64,000 bases of DNA from Podaxis mareebaensis (lineage: Eukaryota; Basidiomycota; Agaricomycetes; Agaricales; Agaricaceae). The notes beneath the pieces were generated by a model that was not told the DNA's origin, did no database searches, and was given only the letters and a program-made list of their open reading frames with translations. The stretch is taken from NCBI GenBank assembly GCA_018524725.1, contig JAEUWP010000097.1, positions 1 through 64,000 of the forward strand, written 5' to 3'. The translations under genes were made by a program, and so were the position numbers. How positions within the stretch are numbered: position 1 is the first letter of the stretch; each line of letters opens with the position of its first letter. This document shows, in pieces, positions 4,600-63,191 of this stretch.

Positions 4600-6283
4600 A
4601 TAGTGGTAGTTATTGAGAAAGGAAGGTGTTTCGCTTGTTCTTTGAGGTGTAATTTCTTCTAGCTGGGCATTGTCTGTAGAAATGTCCCTTCTTCTTACAA
4701 AAGAAACATTCTCCATTCTTGATTGCTGTTCACTGTTTGTCGGTAAATACATTGTTAATGAGGTGTGATAAGGCATTGCTTGTTGTTCTTTCACTGTTAT
4801 GAACTCCTGATTTGGAAGATTGTATATTTTGTACATCTTCTGTTTCATTGTCTTCCTCTTCCTCGTCAGAATCTTGCTCATATTCTCCATCAGAGAATCC
4901 AAACTCATCAATGTCGTCAGTGAGATGATCAATGTCCATATCCCACTCGCTTCTCCTGTATTGAGGTAAGATGGGTTGGGAGGTGATATTTTGATAATGG
5001 GGTTGGATTCTGTAGCTCTTTGTTTTCCTTTGTCCTTTCTTTGCATAGGAAATTCTTCCATTGATTGCTGCTCTGTATTTGCACTGCTCCTGAACAATTC
5101 TATGGGCATTTCTTGCTGCATTCTTCCACTGTGTAATTGTGTCTGTGGTACTTTTAAGTGCTTCGTGTCTGACAGCAGGGTCAAGTCCATTCACAAAGTA
5201 TGCCCGAAGGGCCACACTGTCTGTGAGTCCTGCTTGGGAAGCGAGGACTGAGAATTCTGAGATATATTCCTCGATATATCTGCCATGCTGCTGGAGGTTT
5301 CATAATGCCTGTTCAGCCTTGAATGTCTGTTGTACTGGGGCAAAAGACTGGTCGAGGTCATTTATGAACTCATCCCATGTTTGTTGAGTTGCATCTCTCA
5401 CATGCGTTGAAAGATAATCCTGTTGCCATGCTGATGCTGCTCCATCAAGTAAAGCAAGGGTGTAGTTGACCTTTGTAGCATGGTCTGTGATGCCATAGGA
5501 TTTGAAGTATAATTCAACAAGGGATTTCCAGCTTCTGTACTGGGCAGTATCTCCATAGAATCTTGTTGGCTTTGGGTACTCGAAGTTGGAGTTCTGGTTC
5601 AACATAGTGGCTCCTGCAGATTGTGGAGGTGAAGGGCTTCTTCTGGTACTCCCTGAATTACTTGGGCTCATTCTTCCTCTTGTCTGAGTTCTTGGATCTG
5701 TTCCCCAAGATCCTCCAATCGACTGATGACTTGTTGAGTAAGGTACTGTTGCTCCACCCAAGGTAGTGAGGTTAGATCCAGTTGTGAATGATGGTCTTGA
5801 ATAGTCCATTGAAGGTTGATAAGATCTTGACTGGTGTACTGATGATGAAGATTCTGGTTGCTTTCCTTTCATTTGAGAGGAGAGATTGAATTTGGCAAGA
5901 TCCTCGGTGACTTCTTCAACACTTGGCTGTCTTGAGACCTGTTGCAGTGTGTTAAGTGCTGCTGCAAGTCCTGCAAATTGGTTTGTGGTTGGTTGTTGGG
6001 TTGTCCTCTCTCCTACCACAGCTCTTCTATCAAGTTCTTCTTGTATTGATTCAATTTGTTGCTGATCTTCTTTTGAAAAGTCTTCAAGGAGGAAGGTTTT
6101 GGGTTGGATTCCTGCTTGTTCAAGTAATCCAAACTCTGCTGAGTATTCTTCATTGAGTTTTCTTTGGATTGATGCTTCGAAGTAGTGAGGTCTGTTTCTT
6201 GCATCTTTGTAATACCACTCTTTTGTTGTGGGGTCTTTAAGAACTCTTCCTCTTGTGGGGCTGTCAAATGTGATTGTTTTCAC
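4600..6283 (-). pseudogene. Ty3/gypsy Gag (retrotransposon gag domain with CCHC knuckle), broken
   Basis: One frame runs from an N-terminus with a WYYKDARNRPHYFE stretch through a Pro/Ser/Gln-rich linker to a gag capsid-like domain (about codons 225-400). That domain shows KPTRFYGDTAQYRSWKSL, ALLDGAASAWQQDYL and, after a stop, YISEFSVLASQAGL. An acidic stretch (DSDEEEEDNETED) follows, then the zinc knuckle CFFCKKKGHFYRQC near 4680-4720. In-frame TGA stops lie at 5300 and 4730. The frame opens at a GTG codon just after a TAA, so the true ATG has been lost or lies in a leader exon. Gag packages element RNA; this copy cannot make the full protein. Confidence 0.8.
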
Positions 6284-6299
6284 AATTTTGAATTATCCA

Positions 6300-14090: not shown

Positions 14091-14690
14091 TGATGGAGTA
14101 ATTGCCCACGGGCCAGGCACTACAAGTCCAGATCACGTCAAGTAGCAAATACCTCCTGACTGAGAGAGCAAAACTTGACGCACAACAAGAGCACCGTCGG
14201 GAGATAGATACCCTCCATACAACGCCGGATCACCAAAGAATGCAGTCACAAGATGCACCGGAATTGGTCCACTCTTCAATGCCATCAACCATCCCTTGTC
14301 CATACTCTTCTGCCCAAACCGACAATGCGATCCACCAAAAGTCGTAACAAACATCTCGCCGTGGTACCACACTTGACTTGGGTGGTTCCAATATGTATAC
14401 AAGTAATTCTTGAGCACATCCCCATCTCTCTCAGTAGCGCAGGCTATAGAAGTCATATCAAATGAAGGAAAAAGTTTGAACGTGATGCCTTTTTCGTTGA
14501 GGGCTTTGGCGGCTGTATATGCGTCGGCAACTTTCTGCATTTGCCATTTGCTCCGGCCGAAATGAAGAGCGAAAGCGTCGATGCCTTTCGAAGCTGCGAG
14601 GGTCACATCTAAATAAGATGATGATCAGGCTTGGATACTCAGGGGGGCTTAGGGCATACATACCTCTAGTCCAGGTGTCGAGGCCATGAT
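14091..14690 (-). pseudogene. GH71 alpha-1,3-glucanase fragment
   Basis: It encodes the middle of the GH71 domain, nearly identical to residues 65-206 of the intact gene at 17703-19342. It includes SKGIDAFALHFG, FPSFDMTSIACATERDGD and TTFGGSHCRFGQKSMDKGW. Substitutions are few (for example NEKG for NGKG, YHGE for YRGK). It lacks the signal-peptide exon and everything after the third intron, and a 10-bp deletion destroys the next exon start. It cannot make an enzyme. Confidence 0.85.
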
Positions 14691-17702: not shown

Positions 17703-19342
17703 TCATGCAGGAGATGCCGCGACAAAAGCGTTAAAGTTGTATGATGACGGATGTTTCGAGAACACATAGCCTGAGGGAGCAAATTCCAGCACAGGCGTAT
17801 TCATCCGTGTAACGACGAAAACAACGGTGCATTCTTCCTTCTGCTCTAGGCTGACCTTTGAGACGCCTGCAGGCAGAGCGGTGGAGAGTGTTGAAAGGCC
17901 ACAAGTGAAATTTATCCGCGATTTTTCTTTCAACAGTATAACAGCCCAGATCTTATCTTGTGTCTGAAGTAAAAGGTTATTAGGGCACGAAGAAAAATCT
18001 GGACTGAGACTGTCACATACGAACTGCCAGTTCCTTGGTCTGCCAATGGGATCGTTGGGAGCGTCGGCATCCTTTGGGGAAAGCCTACCCCAAAGGAAGA
18101 CACGGTCCTGGGTGATGTTAGGGAAGCTTCCTGTCTTGAACGCGATGATATAATATTGCATGAGGTCCAACCAGCCTTGCAGGGAGCGTCAGCGACTCAA
18201 ATACTCGGAGAAACGTGGCCAAGGGACTTCACCTTGATGATCAAAACCGTTAGTCCAACCCGGCTGTGCGCCAATGATAGGTCCAAGGTAGTGTGACTCT
18301 CCGTAACCGTTCCATGAGATAACTTCAACAAGATCGACTTTCTCGCGTTGCGCAATCAGAAGTTCCCAGCGAGCGGCGAACAGCCAGTCGTCTCCACGAT
18401 AAATAAAGTTCTTGTTGTAACTGTTCCGTCCATAGTGCTACATCAAGTTAGCATGATGGGTTATAAAAGCCTGTCACACTCACCGTGAAGAACCAAGGCG
18501 AAACGGTGGCCATGTAAGTTCTACCACCGAGACGGTCGATATACTTCTGGTCGTAGTCCTCATTGATGGAGTAATTGCCCATAGGCCAGGCCGCATCCCA
18601 CTACAAGTCCAGATCACGTCAAGTAGCAAATACCTCCTGACTGAGAGAGCAAACCTTGACGCACAGCAAGAGCACCGTCGGGAGATAGATACCCTCCATA
18701 CAACGCCGGATCACCAAAGAATGCAGTCACAAGATGCACCGGGATTGGTCCACTCTTCAACGCCATCAACCACCCCTTGTCCATACTCTTCTGCCCAAAC
18801 CGACAATGCGATCCACCAAAAGTCGTAACAAACATCTTGCCGCGGTACCACACTTGACTTGGGTGGTTCCAATATGTATACAAGTAATTCTTGAGCACAT
18901 CCCCATCTCTCTCAGTAGCGCAGGCTATAGAAGTCATATCAAATGAAGGAAAAAGTCTGAACGTGATGCCTTTTCCGTTGAGGGCTTTGGCGGCTGTATA
19001 TGCATCGGCAACTTTCTGCATTTGCCATTTGCTCCGGCCGAAATGAAGAGCGAAAGCGTCGATGCCTTTCGAAGCTGCGAGGGTCATATCTAAATAAGAC
19101 GATGATCAGGCTTGTGTACCCAGGGGGGGGGCGCTTAGGGCAGACATACCCCTAGTCCAGTCGTCGAGGCCATAGCGTATCGTGTTCCCTACCACGAAAT
19201 GAGCGGTGACCAACTTGTGTTCGCTGCCTTGTCCAGTTGCCCAGCCGAAAAGTTGTTCAACGGTTAAGGGGATAAGAGCTAGCAACAAAATGAGGGTGGC
19301 GAGGATAGCCATTAGAGCTCGCATTGTGTCGTAAAAATGCAA
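17703..19342 (-). CDS. Secreted GH71 alpha-1,3-glucanase (mutanase-like)
   Basis: Six exons (19342-19150, 19089-18665, 18600-18484, 18437-18233, 18175-18021, 17963-17703) close in frame to 451 residues, a typical GH71 length. The first exon gives a signal peptide (ALMAILATLILLLALIPLTV). The domain begins HKLVTAHFVVGNT and contains YGLDDWTRD, SKGIDAFALHFG, FPSFDMTS, TFGGSHC, WDAAWPMGNYSI, YMATVSPWFFT and VISWNGYGESHYLGP. It ends in a beta-type domain closing on NFNAFVAASPA. GH71 enzymes hydrolyse (1-3)-alpha-glucan of fungal cell walls. Residue 289 is Gly where I expect the Asp of the catalytic Asp-x-x-Glu pair (Glu292 is kept), so activity is in doubt. A diverged partial copy lies at 14.1 kb. 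Confidence 0.9.
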
Positions 19343-35469: not shown

Positions 35470-38400
35470 TTAAAAGAATTCGACGCCCAATGAAGGCAAG
35501 AAGAAATTAAATTTCTGTGTGTCGAGATTCTTTGTTAATAAATCTGCGGGATTTTCAGTCCCTTTGATATTATACAAGAGGAATTTTTCGTCCTCAAGTA
35601 AATTGCGGATATAGTGGTATTTAACATCCACATGTTTTGAACATTTTTCGGTTACCGGATTTTTGGCCCAAAATACTGAACCTCGGTTATCACCGAATAA
35701 GTGTGGTTTCTTAATCCTTTCAGGATTAATGCCAATTTCAGTGAGCAGGTTAACTGTCCACTCAATTTGACAACTAGCGTCTGATAAAGCCATATATTCA
35801 GCTTCTGTCGAAGATAAAGCAACGGTTTTCTGGCGCCGTGATAGCCATGATACGGCTGCTCCGGCTATTCTAATAAAGAAGCCAGTGACCGATTTTCTGG
35901 TTTCTGGATCTTGTGCCCAGTCAGAATCAGAGAACACATTGATTCCTTCATTTGTTTGTCCATCATAGACAATGGCATATTTAGATGTGCCACGAAGGTA
36001 TCGTAAAGTATGTAAGCCGGCTTTATAGTGTTCCCATGACAGATTCGTCATTTGTTGGGATAACTTGACGACTGCAAAAGCAATATCGGGACGTGATCCG
36101 ATCATCAAGTACATCAAAGATCCAACCAATTGTTGGTACTTCTGCCTAAAATTAGCAGATGCCTCATCTTTTGCCATAGTAAAGATGAAGTCTCTCGGCA
36201 ATGGAGTTGATTTGGCTTTTTCAACCACATTGAAACATTCTAAGACCTTATCAAGGTAAGGTTGTTGATCAATCATGATCAATAGATTATCACGATCTCT
36301 TGTGATTCGCATTCCAAGGAATTCGGTGAGTTCGCCTAAAAAGCGACATTCCCATTTATCCATAAATGCTTTTATCTTCTGATGAAGGACTTTCGATCCA
36401 CGCGGTCCTAAGAAAGCCGCATCATCCACATAAAGTAGTGCGATGATAAGAGATTTCTCTTGTGTATCATAGTAATAATAGACTCCTGCATCAAGTGATG
36501 CTCGTTTGAAGCCTAGTTCTTTCATTGAATTTGTCACTTCAAGCCACCATTGTCAGCCAGCTTGTTTGAGACCATATAAGGCACGTTTCAAGTGCCATAC
36601 TTTGGTTTCTTGTCCTTTTTGGACGAAACCTTCTGGTTGTCGCATATAAATTTCTTCCTTAAGATGTCCGTAGAGATAAGCGGTCTTCACGTCAAGACCA
36701 AACATATCCCAGTCCTCGAGGGCAGTTATCGCAAATAGCAATCGTGCAGTCTCGTACCGGACAACAGGAGAGAAAAGTTCATTGAAGTCAATGCCTTCGA
36801 TTTGTGAGAACCCTTGTGCGACTAATCGAGATCTGAATCTGCCATCAGATTTCGGAGTGAATACCCATCGATTTCCAATCGCTTTCCTTCCTTTCGGAAG
36901 TTCGACGAGTTCATAAACTTGTCGTTTCTTTAATGCGTCTATCTCCTCAAGACAAGCTTTGTACCACTTATCGCGGATTTCCTTTGGAAGTTTGGCTAAG
37001 TCTTTGAAGACTTTAGGGGTATATGACGCATCAATTTTGTTCGCGAAAAGAAAATTGATGAACTGTACTCCTCCTTCTTTGCATAACTTATTCACGTGAT
37101 GTACCATCATAAGTTCCATCGATGTAGAAGTTTGCAGAGAATCAAGTGTGTGTTCATCAGGTGGCATTTCATTTTCCACATCGGGGAGTGCTACCGGGCT
37201 TCATTTGCGAATTCGCTTGAGTAATGGTTCTCCTTTAGGAGGTATCCATTCAAAGCCTCGATAATTACATAGTACCTTTACCGGATGTTGATCTCCATAT
37301 ATATTTTCGGGTTTAGAAGGAACCCGACGTTCTCTTTGAGGACGTTAATTAGAAGGTGCTTGCCATTGCTGCATCCATGGTGGAGAAGCGGCTTGACGTT
37401 TCTGTGCAGGTTTCATAGGGGAAAACCTAGAAGACGTCGTAGCAGGACCTTGTGATGCTTCACTTTCAGAAGTCCTAGGTCTAGGGCTTGATGATTCTTC
37501 CCTAAAGGGTGGATCATCACTGCGATTCTCATGCTCTTCTAATCTTGGAGACTGAGGAACAGGGGGAGATGCTGTATAAGGGCAATCATCGCCTCGTTCT
37601 TCGAAGTCATCCAAAAATGGAGATGGATCTCGATTTTCATTCAGATCAACGCTTTGCATAGGCGAATGTCTTTCTAGATCAGGATAATCTTTAGGATCAG
37701 CATATTCTAAATCAGAATCATGATCTTCTCGTGGAAGTTCATTTTTGCTGTCCTTATCCTCGTTATTATCGTCTATATCTGGAGTTCCATTCCAATATCT
37801 AGGATCTGGACTGGATGAAGAGGACGATGGTGGCGTTGGAGCCGAAGGTCTTTCCGGAGGTGGTGACCTCGAGTTATCCTGTCTAGGGTAAATTATAACC
37901 TCGCTTTGAGGTGTAGGAGTTCTTGATGAAGAACTACGACTACTATTTGATCTATGTTTCTTTTCAGAACATTTAGGAAAGAATTGTTCATCGAAGATAG
38001 CAGTTGGCAAAATGTAAAGAACATTGCCTTGCAGATGACACATGAACAAATAATTTTTTTGGTCCAAAGAGTATCCCAGGAATATCATTAATTCCAATTT
38101 CGGGGATAATTTATCCTTTCGGACTTCTTTAGGTAAAAATGCATAAGTGCCACATCCAAAGGTTCTGAATTTAGAAACATCTGGTTTGACACCTGTTAGA
38201 ACTTCTTGAGGGGTTTTCCAATCAAGGCGCGACATGGGAGTACGATTGTAAAGATAACAAGCTGTATCAATCGCAAATTCCCACCAACCATCTGGAATAC
38301 AAGCATGATGCCGCATGGCTTCAGCTTTATCCATTAAAGTATGGTTGAGGCGTTCCGCTCTACCATTTTGTTGGTGAGCATGTGGAGCGCTAGTCACATG

Positions 38401-41400
38401 GATAATCCCTTGAGAGCGTAAGAGAGCTTGTAAGCTTTCTTTAACGTATTCTCCTCCTCTATCAGTATGCAAGAACTTTACTGGACCACCAATGTGTTTA
38501 TTGACTAAGGTCAAGAAGTTCTTCATTACTGTGGGTGCTTCGGATTTTTTACGAAGTAAATGAACCCAAGCATTTGAGGAGAAGTCGTCCAAAAAAGTCA
38601 TTACCCATTTATATTTACGGTAACTAACTTTAGGCATTTCTAAAAGATCCGAATGGATTCTTTCTAGAGGCCTGGTCGCTCTCTCGAAGTTTATATTAAA
38701 GCTTTTCTGATGCATTTTTCCCATAGCACAACCTTCACATGGTTTCATGCTACTTTTGGGAATTTCTACATGAGGAAAGCCGATTGTATTTGTCTCAAAG
38801 TGTTTGAGGATACGATTTGACAGGTGTCCCATCCTATTATGAAGGATGTTGTATTCTGGTACGATACTAGTTGTAAACGCGTGCATATCATCATGCATTT
38901 TTATGATCTTACTCTTCACATAATGAAGGGTAGGTGAGCAACCTATCATGGGTTGCGCAACTAGTATTGGCTCATTCAAAGAGTCGTTGACGTGTGAGCA
39001 GGTATCAGTGGTTTCTATTTTAGCTCCAGCCTTGGCGAGCTGACCAACTGATAACAATCAATCTCCACTACCTTGTAGGTAATGCACCGGATATAGATAT
39101 GAATGATTAAGTATCCGAGTGCCATTATCTGTATTGACTACAGTTTCTATTAAGACAGTACCGTGTCCTGGTGATATCATTGGTTCACCGGCAGTGTATA
39201 TGGTTATAGGATCAGGGTAATATTGGAAGTCAATGAAGTCTTCCATATATGGCGTATAATGGCCAGATGCTCCTGAATCCATTAACCAAATAGCATTATA
39301 CTCATCCATTCTTATTATCTCATCATCTTCATATCTTCTGATCTTAGAGGATTTCGGACTGGGAGGTGCATGCACAGAATGAATTACATTAAAGCGAGAT
39401 GTGCTTGTGCACATCGCTACGAATTCTGTACATGTTCCATCGCAAAATTCAACATTGTCCAAAGCTATGAGCCACCTAAGTATCCGTTCCCTTGACAGTA
39501 GGTGCTCATCTCCTCTTCCTCCTTCTGTCCTGCATGGACGACCCTCTAAACCTCGCAACGTTTGGCCTTGGCGCGGCACTTCTTGCCGAGCTTGCCCTTC
39601 TTCTTCCCAAGAGGAAGCATCGTGACCGGTCTGAGTATGGAGGTGATCAGCATCAGATGATGGTGATAAGATATGGATTACATACCCCATAGCCTTCTTC
39701 TTCTCGAAGTCGCTGTCAGTGTCACTCGTGTTGTCAGCATCGTAGTCTACATCAGAAAGGTGACGTGGGCCATTGACAAGAGGCGGGCGATCCTCGATGT
39801 TGCTCCCGACGAGATCAATCTCATCATTGGGATGAGACGCTCTGGGAAGTTGTGGTGAAGAAGGTGGTGCAGGCGGAACATCGACCGACAAGGTCAAAGG
39901 CGCCATTGCTTCATCCCATTCACGTTCTGTTAAACCTATTGAGTAAAGGTATTCAACATCTTCTGGATCAGATGGATAACCTTCAGGGTTTTTGTCAATC
40001 ACAGCAAGCGCCTCTTGCAGGGCACAAGAGCTTTGTTCTCCCTGTTGGGTAACAAGGAAATGAATAAGCCGTAATCGACCAATAGGGTTAACACATACTT
40101 TAGGGTCGACTTCGCAAGTATCCTGTATGACACCAAAATGAATTAATTGGTTCATCAGATCTTGATAGAAGCGACCTATGTGTGGGATGTAGCATTCCCC
40201 TTGAACTTTGGACTTCTTTTTGAAGCGAAGTTCATGTGCCTTCCTCTGCTTCTCTTCCTCATGTTCATGAAGAGCTTCTTCGACGACGTCATACAGCTTT
40301 TCGGCTCGCTGCATGGAAGGGATAGTCTTCTTGGGTGGATTCTTAGTCCATTTACCCATGCGGACACGTCGAGAGTATGTGCCTACCTTGACTGGATGAC
40401 TGGGTGGAAGAAGACCTGAGTGTCCCAGAAGTGGCGGGAACTCTTCGTCAAAGTTCTTCGCTTTCTCGGATGCATCATCTAGTGACATGAGGAGTAAGGT
40501 TTCCTCAATCAGGTCTTGTACACTTCGTTTAGTGGGAGCACAACGAAGCTTATGAGCGCGATTGATGTCGTGATAGCATTGGGTCCGAATCTTCTGTTCC
40601 TCTCGAATCTGATCAAGCGACTTAGTCGCTGTATCAGTCCATTGACGTTTCATCGCTTGAAGAGTTTCATGCACCTCCTGTGTGAGATTAATTATCTCAA
40701 GCTCAAGGATAGCAGTAAAACAGAGGTTACTCGCCTCTATTTTAGTCTCTTCGAACTTACGTTTCTCCTGCAAAGCAGAAGAGTAAGTCGGTGCGATGGG
40801 AACAGGATTCTGAGATCGTACCCGATGAGAAAGTGAGGGAAGCAGGGGACGGTCCTGCAGAACCGTAGCAGCTAGGCGTTGTTGGACCAAAGCCTGAGGT
40901 GGAATGCGAGGTGCGTTCACTTGTGGCCTCTGGATTCGATCTAAGAGGTCGAATGGGTGCATATCGGGACCTGTGTGAGGTCTACCAGCACCAGCATGGG
41001 GAAGTGGAGGTGCCGCTGCTAGGTGAGCAGGTGCAGCAAAACCCGCCATGGAATCAGCTGGTTTAGCTGAGGCGTTAGGGGACTTCTTCTTCTTGGGAGC
41101 CCTCTTCTTCTTTGGCTTAACGGTCTGCCATTGACCTGGCTGACTGCCTTGTTGGCCTTGAGGCTTGGGACCGTTGGAGGTTTTATCCCGGCCGACAGGC
41201 TGAGGGATAAATCAACTCCAAGGTGGACCCAGACGAGACTTGTTCCAGGCAGAAGGACCACCCTGGTTATTGGGAAGTTTAGCTTTGTTAGCAAATTGAG
41301 CATTGGCGAGATGAGTGGACATTTTGTTGCGTCCATTCCTCTGAGCCCATTCAGCATTTAAAGCATCTGCAACCACCCACCATGTTAAGGCTTTGATTGT

Positions 41401-55020: not shown

Positions 55021-57919
55021 TTAATCAATGGCTTGAGTACCGGTGTAAGGTTCCAATCGTTGACAGGCTTCCGCCCAGTCAATGGTCCCATTAACCAGGT
55101 CCGTGACAGTCGCAATCACGTCGTCAATGGACCCAATCCTTTGATCCATGGTGTCTCGTTCCCTAAAGAGATAGAGAAGAAAGGAAAATACAAAGTTGGC
55201 ATGAGCAGTTCATAAATAAGAATGCACACGAGGCAACTTAAATGGGACTTACCGAAGTGTCATGGTATGGTTTTGGACGGCTATTTTCGTGTACAGGTTC
55301 ACGTTCGTGCATTATCATGCGTTGCATTGGGCGTTACGTGGCGAAGATTGTGAACGGGGGCATTAGGCATGACAGGAGGAATGGAAAGGATGCGGTGGAT
55401 GAAGAGCATGAGAAGTTAGCATAAAACCATGAGAACGATAACAGAGAGTTGGATGAGTGATAAAAGATGAGTACGTACAGGCAAAATCAATCGTTACTCC
55501 GTAAGGCGTGCCGAGTTCGTCATTGCGGGCATAGCGTTTGCCGATGGATGTGTTTGAGTCATCGACGCGAGAGAACACGCCCGCGCGGCGAAGTTTCGTG
55601 GCTTCGGATTCATAACACAAACAAGTCCAGGGGGCAATCAATCGATCAGATTGGCCGAGCAAAGTTCCGACAGACGAAAGATAACCGGAAATGTGAAAGG
55701 CAAACTGTCAGTACCCAGCATCCAGTACACAAGCTCAAGGCCCCAAGTGGAAAGGAAGTGTACGTACAGACTTCCTGCACCAACGGATCGAACTCTGCGC
55801 GTGCGCTCAAGGGAACAATAAGGACCTTGGTAGGGGCCACCACAGGTGGTAGTGAAAGCACCTAAGCGCAGGGATGATCAGCACCCTCGCATGTACGTAG
55901 CGGCACCCCGTAACAAACGGGACTCACACCACGCTCAACATCTTGTTCTCTGCTCCAGAAATTATGCTCGAGCAATGTATAAAGAATACGACCCAGACCA
56001 AATGATGGCTCGATAACATTAGGGATGAACTCTCGAACTGATCACCATCGTTTAATAGCAAAAAAGCGCGGAAGTGAGTTGAAGTTAGGAACGTGCCAGG
56101 ATAGGGTTCGGCCGGCACTTACTTGACTGCTTGAAGGTCTTGCGTTCGATGGTCAATATTTCTGAGGTAAGTTTGAAATCCTTTCCATCCTCGGACGTGA
56201 TAATAGCGGAACTAAACCCAAAACAACGGAATGAATAAGGCGATCGGAGGCAATATACTTTCACCGCAACTCAAAGTAGATACTCACCCCTGCGCAAGTT
56301 CACCCTTGAGTTTGACCAACGCGGTTTCGTCCAATGATTCCACAATCTTCTGGATAACACCGGCATCCTGTTTGTAAGTCTTGCCCAAATTCTTCCTGTT
56401 CCATTCTACCGCCTCCTTCTCCGTCACAATAGGCTCTTTCAGGGCCTGACGGACAACAAGGGGGTGCCCCGTCTTCGCGGTATGCACGGACAAATCGTAC
56501 GCAGCACGATCTGCGCACCCGACACACTCGGTCCATCCCGTCGAATTGTGGATCTCCGCGTCCCAGCAATCCGTCGCATAATGCGCCATCTCGTTGGCCA
56601 TATGTTGGCGGAAGCGCAGACGCTCGGGGTTGATGCCAATATTGATGAGGAACTGGTATATCCGCGCGACAAAGTACCCGAGAGTTTGGTTGGCGATAAT
56701 ACCCTTGTCCACGGCGTCGCCAACCTTCATCCTCTTCGTCTCGTTGCTACCGGACTCTTGGACATGCCGATCGAGCAGGACGATTTCGACGTCGCGTACT
56801 TCGTTGAATTTCTCGTGGTTCTTGTCTTCCGGATCGACGTAGTGTTCAATTTCGGCCATTGTGAACTCGCGGACGCGCAGCAGCCCGGCGCGGGGTGAAA
56901 TTTCATTGCGGAAGGAGCGACCGATTTGAGCAGATGCGAAGGGGACACGGCCGTTGTTATATTCAAGAAGACGAGAGAAATTGAGGAAATGGCCTTGAGC
57001 AGTTTCAGGTCGGAGGTATCTAAAGACGAGTGATTAAATGAGAAAAAAATAACCGAGAGAGCTTGACAACGCACCCTGGGTGCTGACCGGTAGGTCCGAT
57101 GCTACTGGTGAACATCAAGTTGAATTGCTGAGGCTCTCCAACTTCATTATCGGTATCCGGGTTACGGATATTATGAGTTCGGCAAAGTTCTCCAAGCTGG
57201 GGTCCCGAATAGTTATCCAACTGGGAAAATCCAATACAATCAGTTTCAAAAGCCGGGAGAAAGTGAGATAACCGCTAAACACACACCTGCGCCAAAATCG
57301 TCTCGTACTCCTTTACAACCGCATCATCAAGCATAACAGCAGTAGCTTTGGCACCCTTCTTCTTTTTCTTCTTATCCTTTTCATCCTGGGGAACGGCAGC
57401 GATGCCCCTCGCTTCCAAATTTCCAGCGAGCCTTGCCTCAAGGACGTTTTTCACGAGGTGGTCCGCCCGGAGGACGTCTCCAGTCTTGGTATCCTTGACC
57501 ATCCAGTCAGCAAAGCGTGCTACGTGGCCCGACGTCTCGAAAACGGGGGCGGGCGTCATAATAGTGGTATCGAGTTCAAGCATGCCCTCTTCGATAATAA
57601 AATGCTTGCGCCATTCCGCGATGATGTTGGCTTGGAGTGCAGAGCCTGGTGGACCATAATCGTAGAGACCAGCGACACCTGTAGGGGAAGTCGAGTCAGA
57701 GATCACAATGGGGAAAAAACGAGCCGGTAACGCACCTCCGTAGATTTCAAAAGCAGGAGCATAGAAGAACCTCCTATTCAACAAGGCCTCGAGACGGGTC
57801 TTGTCGAAAGGGTGTGCAGTCTTGTTCACCTGTGTGGACATGGACGACTGGAAGCGGCGATGAACGCAGCGATAAGATTTTGTGATACAGAAATGGAGAG
57901 TCCCATAGGCCAATCGCAT
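55021..57919 (-). CDS. GRS1: Glycyl-tRNA synthetase, cytosolic and probably mitochondrial
   Basis: It charges tRNA-Gly with glycine (class II, EC 6.1.1.14). Ten exons close in frame to 679 residues: 57919-57736, 57678-57287, 57220-57075, 57019-56288, 56211-56123, 56037-55928, 55861-55768, 55601-55479, 55280-55253 and 55162-55021. The start shows [14 protein letters not shown] and [14 protein letters not shown]. The Lys-rich insert KDKKKKKKG is followed by [28 protein letters not shown], motif 2 ([19 protein letters not shown]) and the Cys-containing [15 protein letters not shown]. Then come [16 protein letters not shown], the anticodon-binding [14 protein letters not shown] and the tail [11 protein letters not shown]. 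The first ATG adds 26 residues rich in Arg/Lys without acids, a likely mitochondrial leader. A second ATG at 57841 (MSTQVNK) would give a 653-residue cytosolic form. One exon is only 28 nt. Confidence 0.95.
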
Positions 57920-62545: not shown

Positions 62546-63060
62546 CTAGTTTTCGGGTGCAAAATCGCGCTTCCAGCCAGGAGGGGGGCCCCGTTGAGCC
62601 TCAGCTTCACGTTTCCAACTAGGTGTTCGTTGAGCCTCGGCTTCACGCTTCCAGCTAGGCGTTCGTTGAGGTTCGGCCTCACGTCTCCAACCAGGTGGAG
62701 GTGGGACGGGTGCAGCCTCGGCCGCGGCTTCTCTTCGCCAGCCGGGTGGCGTTCCTCCGGGCTCAGCAGTCCGCTTCCAGCCAGGAGAAGGAGGTCCCCT
62801 CTGAAAAGGCACCGAGATAAGTTTAAGATGTAAATTAGATTCATCCGATAAACTTACAGCAACAGCTGCCGCTCCACCGTCAACCTAAATAGCGCAAGTA
62901 GAAAAGGTGCATTGATCAGCCAAAGTGCTTTTTTCGATATAAAGAAGGAATAGAAGGGAAAAAAAAAAGGGGGGGGCAGTGTCGGGGAGAGACTTACAGG
63001 GACGGGAGCAGCTAGAGCAGCACCAATAACAGATACGAAGAAAAGGAGTTGGATTCGCAT
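62546..63060 (-). CDS. Secreted repeat precursor with six Kex2-type sites (alpha-factor-like layout)
   Basis: Three exons (63060-62998, 62884-62858, 62800-62546) close in frame to 114 residues. Exon 1 is a signal peptide (MRIQLLFFVSVIGAALA). After it come six units, each ending in Trp followed by Lys-Arg or Arg-Arg, the sites cut by the Golgi protease Kex2. Units start with X-Ala or X-Pro pairs (TAEP, EAAAEAAP, EAEP, EAEA, EAEA) of the kind trimmed by Ste13-type dipeptidyl peptidases. Predicted cores are GGTPPGW, VPPPPGW, QRTPSW (twice) and QRGPPPGW, after a first unit ending RGPPSPGW. A short DFAPEN tail ends the protein. There is no Cys and no CaaX end, so it is not a classical basidiomycete mating pheromone. 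Product and role are unknown. A TATA box lies 125 bp upstream. Confidence 0.85.
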
Positions 63061-63184: not shown

Positions 63185-63191
63185 TTTTATA
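63185..63191 (-). promoter_or_regulatory. TATA box of the secreted repeat precursor gene
   Basis: The minus strand reads CCCATATAAAAGGG, with TATAAAA at 63191-63185, 125 bp before the ATG. It is a strong core-promoter match for an inducible, highly expressed gene. Confidence 0.55.

Follow-up and report, generated by a model that had tools for sequence, protein, structure and literature searches.

Structure of the precursor gene

The DNA analyzed in this study, referred to below as the window, comprises 64,000 nucleotides (positions 1 to 64,000) of contig C190. A precursor gene occupies positions 63060-62546 on its minus strand, the first base of the start codon being 63060 and the last base of the stop codon 62546. 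It consists of three exons and encodes a 114-aa protein once two introns are removed. The features of the gene, all on the minus strand, are as follows.

62998..63060, minus strand: exon 1, MRIQLLFFVSVIGAALAAPVP, signal peptide, assigned by hydropathy only
62885..62997, minus strand: intron 1, 113 nt, GTAAGT...TAG
62858..62884, minus strand: exon 2, VDGGAAAVA, short pro-region
62801..62857, minus strand: intron 2, 57 nt, GTAAGT...CAG
62546..62800, minus strand: exon 3, six Pro-x-Trp-[Lys/Arg]-Arg units, X-Ala/X-Pro spacers, tail DFAPEN, stop codon TAG
62771..62800, minus strand: unit 1, RGPPSPGW-KR, with core GPPSPGW if the single Arg is cut after
62732..62770, minus strand: unit 2, TAEP-GGTPPGW-RR
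62681..62731, minus strand: unit 3, EAAAEAAP-VPPPPGW-RR
62645..62680, minus strand: unit 4, EAEP-QRTPSW-KR
62609..62644, minus strand: unit 5, EAEA-QRTPSW-KR
62567..62608, minus strand: unit 6, EAEA-QRGPPPGW-KR
63186..63191, minus strand: TATA-like hexamer TATAAA, 131 bases before the ATG, by consensus match only

The predicted signal peptide is a hydrophobic stretch following the initial MR, with a best 10-residue mean of 2.67 by simple hydropathy. Both introns are of the GT-AG type with GTAAGT donors. Removal of intron 1 is required, because the signal peptide is otherwise out of frame with the repeats. Intron 2 is in frame and free of stop codons, and its retention is therefore possible; the retained form would add 19 aa ahead of unit 1 and place a Gln before the first Arg, yielding QRGPPSPGW, similar to unit 6. 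The spliced junction AVA-RGPPSPGW resembles VAA-RGSPGW of the Termitomyces relative P0001 and AAA-RGGNPSW of the Lyophyllum relative P0005 (see below), a likeness that weighs against retention and does not settle it. A public protein search with the precursor protein did not return an entry for this gene among the proteins found, so the gene is probably unannotated.

Similar units between KR or RR sites, the hallmark of KEX2-processed repeat proteins (KEPs), occur six times in the precursor. X-Ala/X-Pro pairs, the STE13 signature, directly follow five of the six dibasic sites, and the sixth is followed by DFAPEN. Over the 11 codons compared, the QRTPSW-containing units 4 and 5 show four differences, all of them synonymous. 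Since 21 of the 99 possible single changes are synonymous, four of four would arise by chance with a probability of about 0.002 (0.008 if transitions alone are counted), assuming an equal chance for all single changes. The only residue change lies in the spacer ahead of the core, EAEP in unit 4 and EAEA in unit 5, and both Pro and Ala suit a dipeptidyl aminopeptidase. The first-pass annotation had given the ends of the gene, the signal peptide, the six Trp-[Lys/Arg]-Arg units, the spacers EAEA, EAEP, EAAAEAAP and TAEP, and the purely synonymous divergence of the QRTPSW units; all of these are borne out, and the two introns, which it did not state, are added here.

This architecture is not expected by chance. 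Among 550 stop-to-stop frames of at least 60 aa in 84 kb of the contig, the precursor frame is the only one with at least two W[KR]R motifs, and 500 shuffles of the protein gave at most two Trp-dibasic sites compared with the six observed. At the DNA level, the pattern W[KR]R-E-[A/P]...W[KR]R has three matches in the 36.95-Mb assembly, all within the precursor gene, and its reversed control has none; because it requires specific codons at some positions, the pattern may miss further genes of this kind. A search of the assembly with the precursor protein found no gene besides the precursor's own exons.

Genomic neighborhood

Protein domains were sought in nine frames besides the repeat exon at 54-64 kb and in 10 of the 51 frames of at least 100 aa in the next 20 kb. 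The domains identified in these selected frames were those of class II tRNA synthetases and SET, and a single P450 match stayed below threshold. The exons of the class II aminoacyl-tRNA synthetase, of glycyl type by our reading, lie at window positions 55366-57033 on the same minus strand as the precursor gene. Two frames with similar starts, roughly 9 and 12.5 kb away from the precursor gene at C190:72.4-76.7 kb, are P450-like by reading; a sub-threshold P450 match was obtained for one frame of the second, and none for the tested frames of the first. A glycosyltransferase 90 gene about 20 kb away has its nearest match in Macrolepiota fuliginosa, at 69% across 87% of the query length, with the others at most 57% among the best 120 of 310. 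This points to a fungus of the Agaricales, perhaps one close to the Agaricaceae. Farther along the window are the following features.

14136-14624, 17706-18188, 18617-19105, minus strand: glycosyl hydrolase 71 (GH71) frames
76-1011, 5303-6292, 35473-41211, minus strand: retroelement pieces

Two of the GH71 frames, with seven differences in 163 residues, are about 4.5 kb apart and have a C-terminal GH71 frame between them; they represent a duplicated gene. One retroelement piece is a frame for reverse transcriptase that stands at the edge of the window, within 4 kb of strong GC skew (0.39); another is a match to the Ty3 capsid that stays below threshold, and the third is an RVT_2 frame of Copia type.

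Relatives of the precursor

The first protein search identified six proteins at E <= 1 among 819 candidates, and the second, based on an alignment of these relatives, gave 24 proteins at E <= 0.01 among 7991 scored candidates, the first six included. Twelve of the 24 carry a species name. All of these belong to mushroom fungi of the Agaricomycetes, and each is described as a hypothetical protein; the genera are Termitomyces, Hebeloma, Lyophyllum, Pleurotus, Arthromyces, Mycena, Amanita, Crassisporium, Pholiota, Favolaschia, Panaeolus, and Sanghuangporus. A lineage look-up assigned Sanghuangporus to the Hymenochaetales, and Arthromyces and Favolaschia to the Agaricales, to which we take the remaining nine genera to belong as well.

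The layout of the precursor is conserved in these proteins. The first-pass annotation had staked its reading on the conservation of W-[KR]R in relatives, and Trp indeed stands directly before 131 of the 155 dibasic sites in the 25 proteins (24 relatives and the precursor), a count that is biased upward by the word-based search, which favors W-K-R-E-A strings. X-Ala or X-Pro follows 99 of the 155 sites. A Met start and an early, clear hydrophobic stretch are found in 18 of the 25 proteins; the Met start is missing in P0003 and P0004, and hydropathy is below the chosen cut-off in P0006, P0007, P0014, P0023, and P0024.

The conserved end of the units extends beyond Trp. Pro occupies the position two residues before it (W-2) in 96 of the 131 units, which within one protein are not independent of each other. 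Among the 120 parsed cores, Pro is found there in 86; when residues were shuffled within the cores 2000 times, this count averaged 27.4 and never exceeded 42. Taken protein by protein, 15 of the 25 have Pro at W-2 in the majority of their units and 10 do not; in P0013, P0022, P0023, and P0024 no unit has it.

Processing machinery and proposed maturation pathway

The genome contains a kexin with a P-domain, the catalytic exon of which best matches the solved structure of Kexin 1ot5 (E 4.2e-71). It also contains one DPPIV_N gene, DPPIV-like by comparison with solved structures, whose upstream frame with a hydrophobic segment by our reading fits a type II membrane enzyme, and 35 matches to S10 serine carboxypeptidases; the S10 and DPP matches are assignments at the level of family, not of orthology to KEX1 or STE13. 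The Glu_cyclase_2 family (PF05096) has no match in the genome. M28 peptidases have 10, and an M28 match does not separate a cyclase from other M28 enzymes.

DPPIV-type trimming halts at a pair whose second residue is neither Ala nor Pro, and before X-Pro-Pro. By these rules GGTPPGW, QRTPSW, QRGPPPGW, and VPPPPGW are the expected trimming endpoints. We suggest that, if the gene is expressed, the signal peptide would take the chain into the secretory pathway, where kexin would cleave after every KR or RR, a Kex1-type carboxypeptidase would take off the basic pair, and a Ste13-type dipeptidyl aminopeptidase would trim the X-Ala/X-Pro pairs, halting at GG, QR, or VP-Pro. The predicted products are GPPSPGW, GGTPPGW, VPPPPGW, QRTPSW (twice), and QRGPPPGW, of which the Gln-starting cores are probably partly converted to the pyroglutamate form. 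The peptides would leave the cell in linear form. Since the shared end is the conserved part, the Pro-x-Trp end is probably what the target reads.

Possible functions of the peptides

In our judgment it is highly probable that the product of this gene is a KEX2-processed repeat protein with a STE13 signature, from which linear Pro-x-Trp-ending peptides arise. Their most likely role is that of an external signal or an interaction peptide, and not that of a mating pheromone. Our confidence was lowered slightly by the 10 of 25 proteins that have no Pro at W-2 in most of their units. The manufacture is probably alpha-factor-like; that the product is a mating factor or is cyclised runs counter to the evidence. 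The Kex2/Ste13-style processing of Trp-ending cores proposed in the first-pass annotation is supported by the sequence, by the relatives, and by published peptidomics of analogues (Vogt et al. 2022, PMC9769878). The signal role that it suggested stays hypothetical; the analogue KEP 490115 of Coprinopsis cinerea had no visible phenotype when knocked out, according to the same text.

Who listens to such a peptide is a separate matter. An interaction peptide acting outward, toward bacteria, animals, or plants, would be manufactured identically to a self signal and differ in its listener. We regard this as a real possibility, somewhat short of probable. Six C. cinerea KEPs, including 490115, were knocked out with no visible phenotype, and Vogt et al. 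favor a role in the biotic environment, the knockouts being normal in axenic culture; against it, the synthetic KEP peptides tested had no antibacterial activity (consulted text of PMC9769878). With normal knockouts and inactive synthetic peptides, that text lends support neither to a signal for growth or fruiting nor to an antibacterial role. A wider proposal is that the Pro-x-Trp peptides form a mushroom-wide family of secreted hormones. They would have a C-terminal pharmacophore in common, be made by the alpha-factor grammar, and act through a receptor that is neither STE2 nor STE3, while variation in the N-terminal part of the cores would let one precursor give species- or unit-specific signals; we put this forward tentatively, as unlikely.

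Trp and Pro might instead serve the protease, Trp occupying the P3 position of the kexin site, with the peptides as by-products or spacers. The frequent adjacency of Trp to a dibasic site (131 of 155) is what such a role would produce. However, 13 of the 25 proteins end in a bare Trp with no dibasic site after it, and Pro is at W-2 in 10 of these (the other three have Gln, Lys, and Ala); the precursor itself, with its DFAPEN tail, is not Trp-ending. The excess of W-2 Pro over shuffled cores likewise tells against service to the protease, and we consider that explanation improbable. Given the frequency of Pro at W-2 and the occurrence of Trp at bare chain ends, Pro-x-Trp looks like a part of the product. 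Neither the Pro-x-Trp count nor the chain-end Trp argument was met in the consulted parts of PMC6339444, PMC7329392, and PMC9769878 or in a limited further literature search.

Modification of the cores by UstYa/DUF3328 oxidases, which would make the gene a dikaritin-type cyclised RiPP precursor, is very unlikely. The genome does have UstYa matches, eight in all and spread over four contigs, and the P450-like frames are some 9 to 13 kb from the precursor gene. Furthermore, in a survey of 1680 KEPs from 317 basidiomycete strains, DUF3328 neighbors were reported for 103 of the 1680 and for 17 of the 76 KEPs homologous to putative Basidiomycota pheromones (Umemura 2020, PMC7329392); the latter figure makes a clean separation of pheromone-like from modified peptides doubtful. 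Nevertheless, none of the eight UstYa matches is on contig C190 (best candidates scored), there is none in the selected neighbor frames, and the 114-aa precursor protein has no Tyr. The suggestion that the peptides are a substrate for a modifying enzyme thus finds little support, UstYa matches occurring in the genome with none on the precursor's contig. The UstYa matches lie in twos on contigs C61, C58, C291, and C325, which suggests dikaritin-type clusters elsewhere in the genome. A crude scan for repeat precursors around them (a 5-mer repeated three times plus three dibasic sites), covering loci of only about 2 to 4 kb, found none.

Least credible is an alpha-factor-type sexual pheromone of mushrooms read by a STE2-like receptor, even though the precursor grammar is the same as that of ascomycete alpha-pheromones and hormone or pheromone roles have been suggested for such KEPs (Le Marquer et al. 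2019, PMC6339444). The genome has the ordinary basidiomycete parts, with 23 STE3 matches on three contigs and, amid those on contig C188, three short frames ending in a CaaX box (CIIS, CIIA, CIIS) within 10 kb. It is because of these STE3 genes with CaaX-ending frames among them that the mating role is marked down. Under the strict filter C-[VI]-[VI]-x the three C188 frames were kept, and the remaining 104 kb scanned gave none; a broad CaaX filter is unspecific, as it also picked up two frames in a further 20 kb of C188, six in the 64-kb window, and one in the adjacent 20 kb. STE2 has no match in the genome by a method that found the STE3 exons well, and none in the control genomes, so a STE2 gene may still have been missed. 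No Pfam family matched the repeat exon, though models of this kind can overlook a short repeat core, and solved structures gave no match to it either. The precursor ends in DFAPEN, with no CaaX box as in lipopeptide pheromones, and its gene and the STE3 cluster are on different contigs. In C188 the STE3-like matches span 69000-121000, and the CaaX frames are at 71021-71191, 71984-72151, and 75278-75436 (within C188:66001-76000); this region is probably the B mating-type locus.

For the preferred reading, a secreted linear peptide with a Pro-x-Trp end, two consequences follow. The end is kept even where no protease cut needs it, which narrows the search for its purpose. If a receptor is found, it would represent a second kind of peptide signaling in mushrooms beside the lipopeptide pheromones.

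Comparison with known systems

By its sequence, the precursor is an additional member of a class already known in mushrooms, the KEPs with a STE13 signature. The novelty lies in the gene as a member and not in the class, which was described in 2019 to 2022 (PMC6339444, PMC9769878). The gene adds a well-formed, probably unannotated member to this class of mushroom peptides. KEPs with clear STE13 signatures have been described in Basidiomycota (PMC6339444), and they share with the precursor the signal peptide, the repeats, the KEX2 sites, and the X-Ala/X-Pro pairs (PMC6339444, PMC7329392). The conserved motif reported for Basidiomycota KEPs is XSDW (PMC6339444), whereas that of the precursor is P-x-W. 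Many basidiomycete KEPs combine STE13 motifs with a C-terminal tryptophan (PMC9769878).

In the consulted text, the published knockout KEP with cores most like those of the precursor is C. cinerea 490115, which also has STE13 pairs after RR and Gln-starting, Pro-Ser-Trp-ending cores. Its expression in Pichia gave QMRPPSW, QYKAPSW, and pyro-QYKAPSW, all freed of the STE13 pairs (PMC9769878). Its core sequences differ from those of the precursor, and the comparison is by published cores only, not as an orthologue. Another peptide of similar form, GPPAPSW, was detected in C. cinerea supernatant (PMC9769878). The exact core QRTPSW was not found in the literature searched. The Pleurotus KEPs 1091723 and 1439342, from which SGVAADW was detected in fruiting bodies, have STE13 pairs and Trp-ending cores like the precursor, but their end is Ala-Asp-Trp (PMC9769878).

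Among the named sequence relatives found, the closest are those of Termitomyces (P0001), Hebeloma (P0002), Lyophyllum (P0005), and Pleurotus eryngii (P0006). They have the same layout and units ending in P-x-W (three of six units in P0006), and differ from the precursor in the number of units and in the cores. Finally, the ascomycete alpha-factor precursors share the Kex2/Kex1/Ste13 grammar with the precursor gene; their core sequence differs from its cores.
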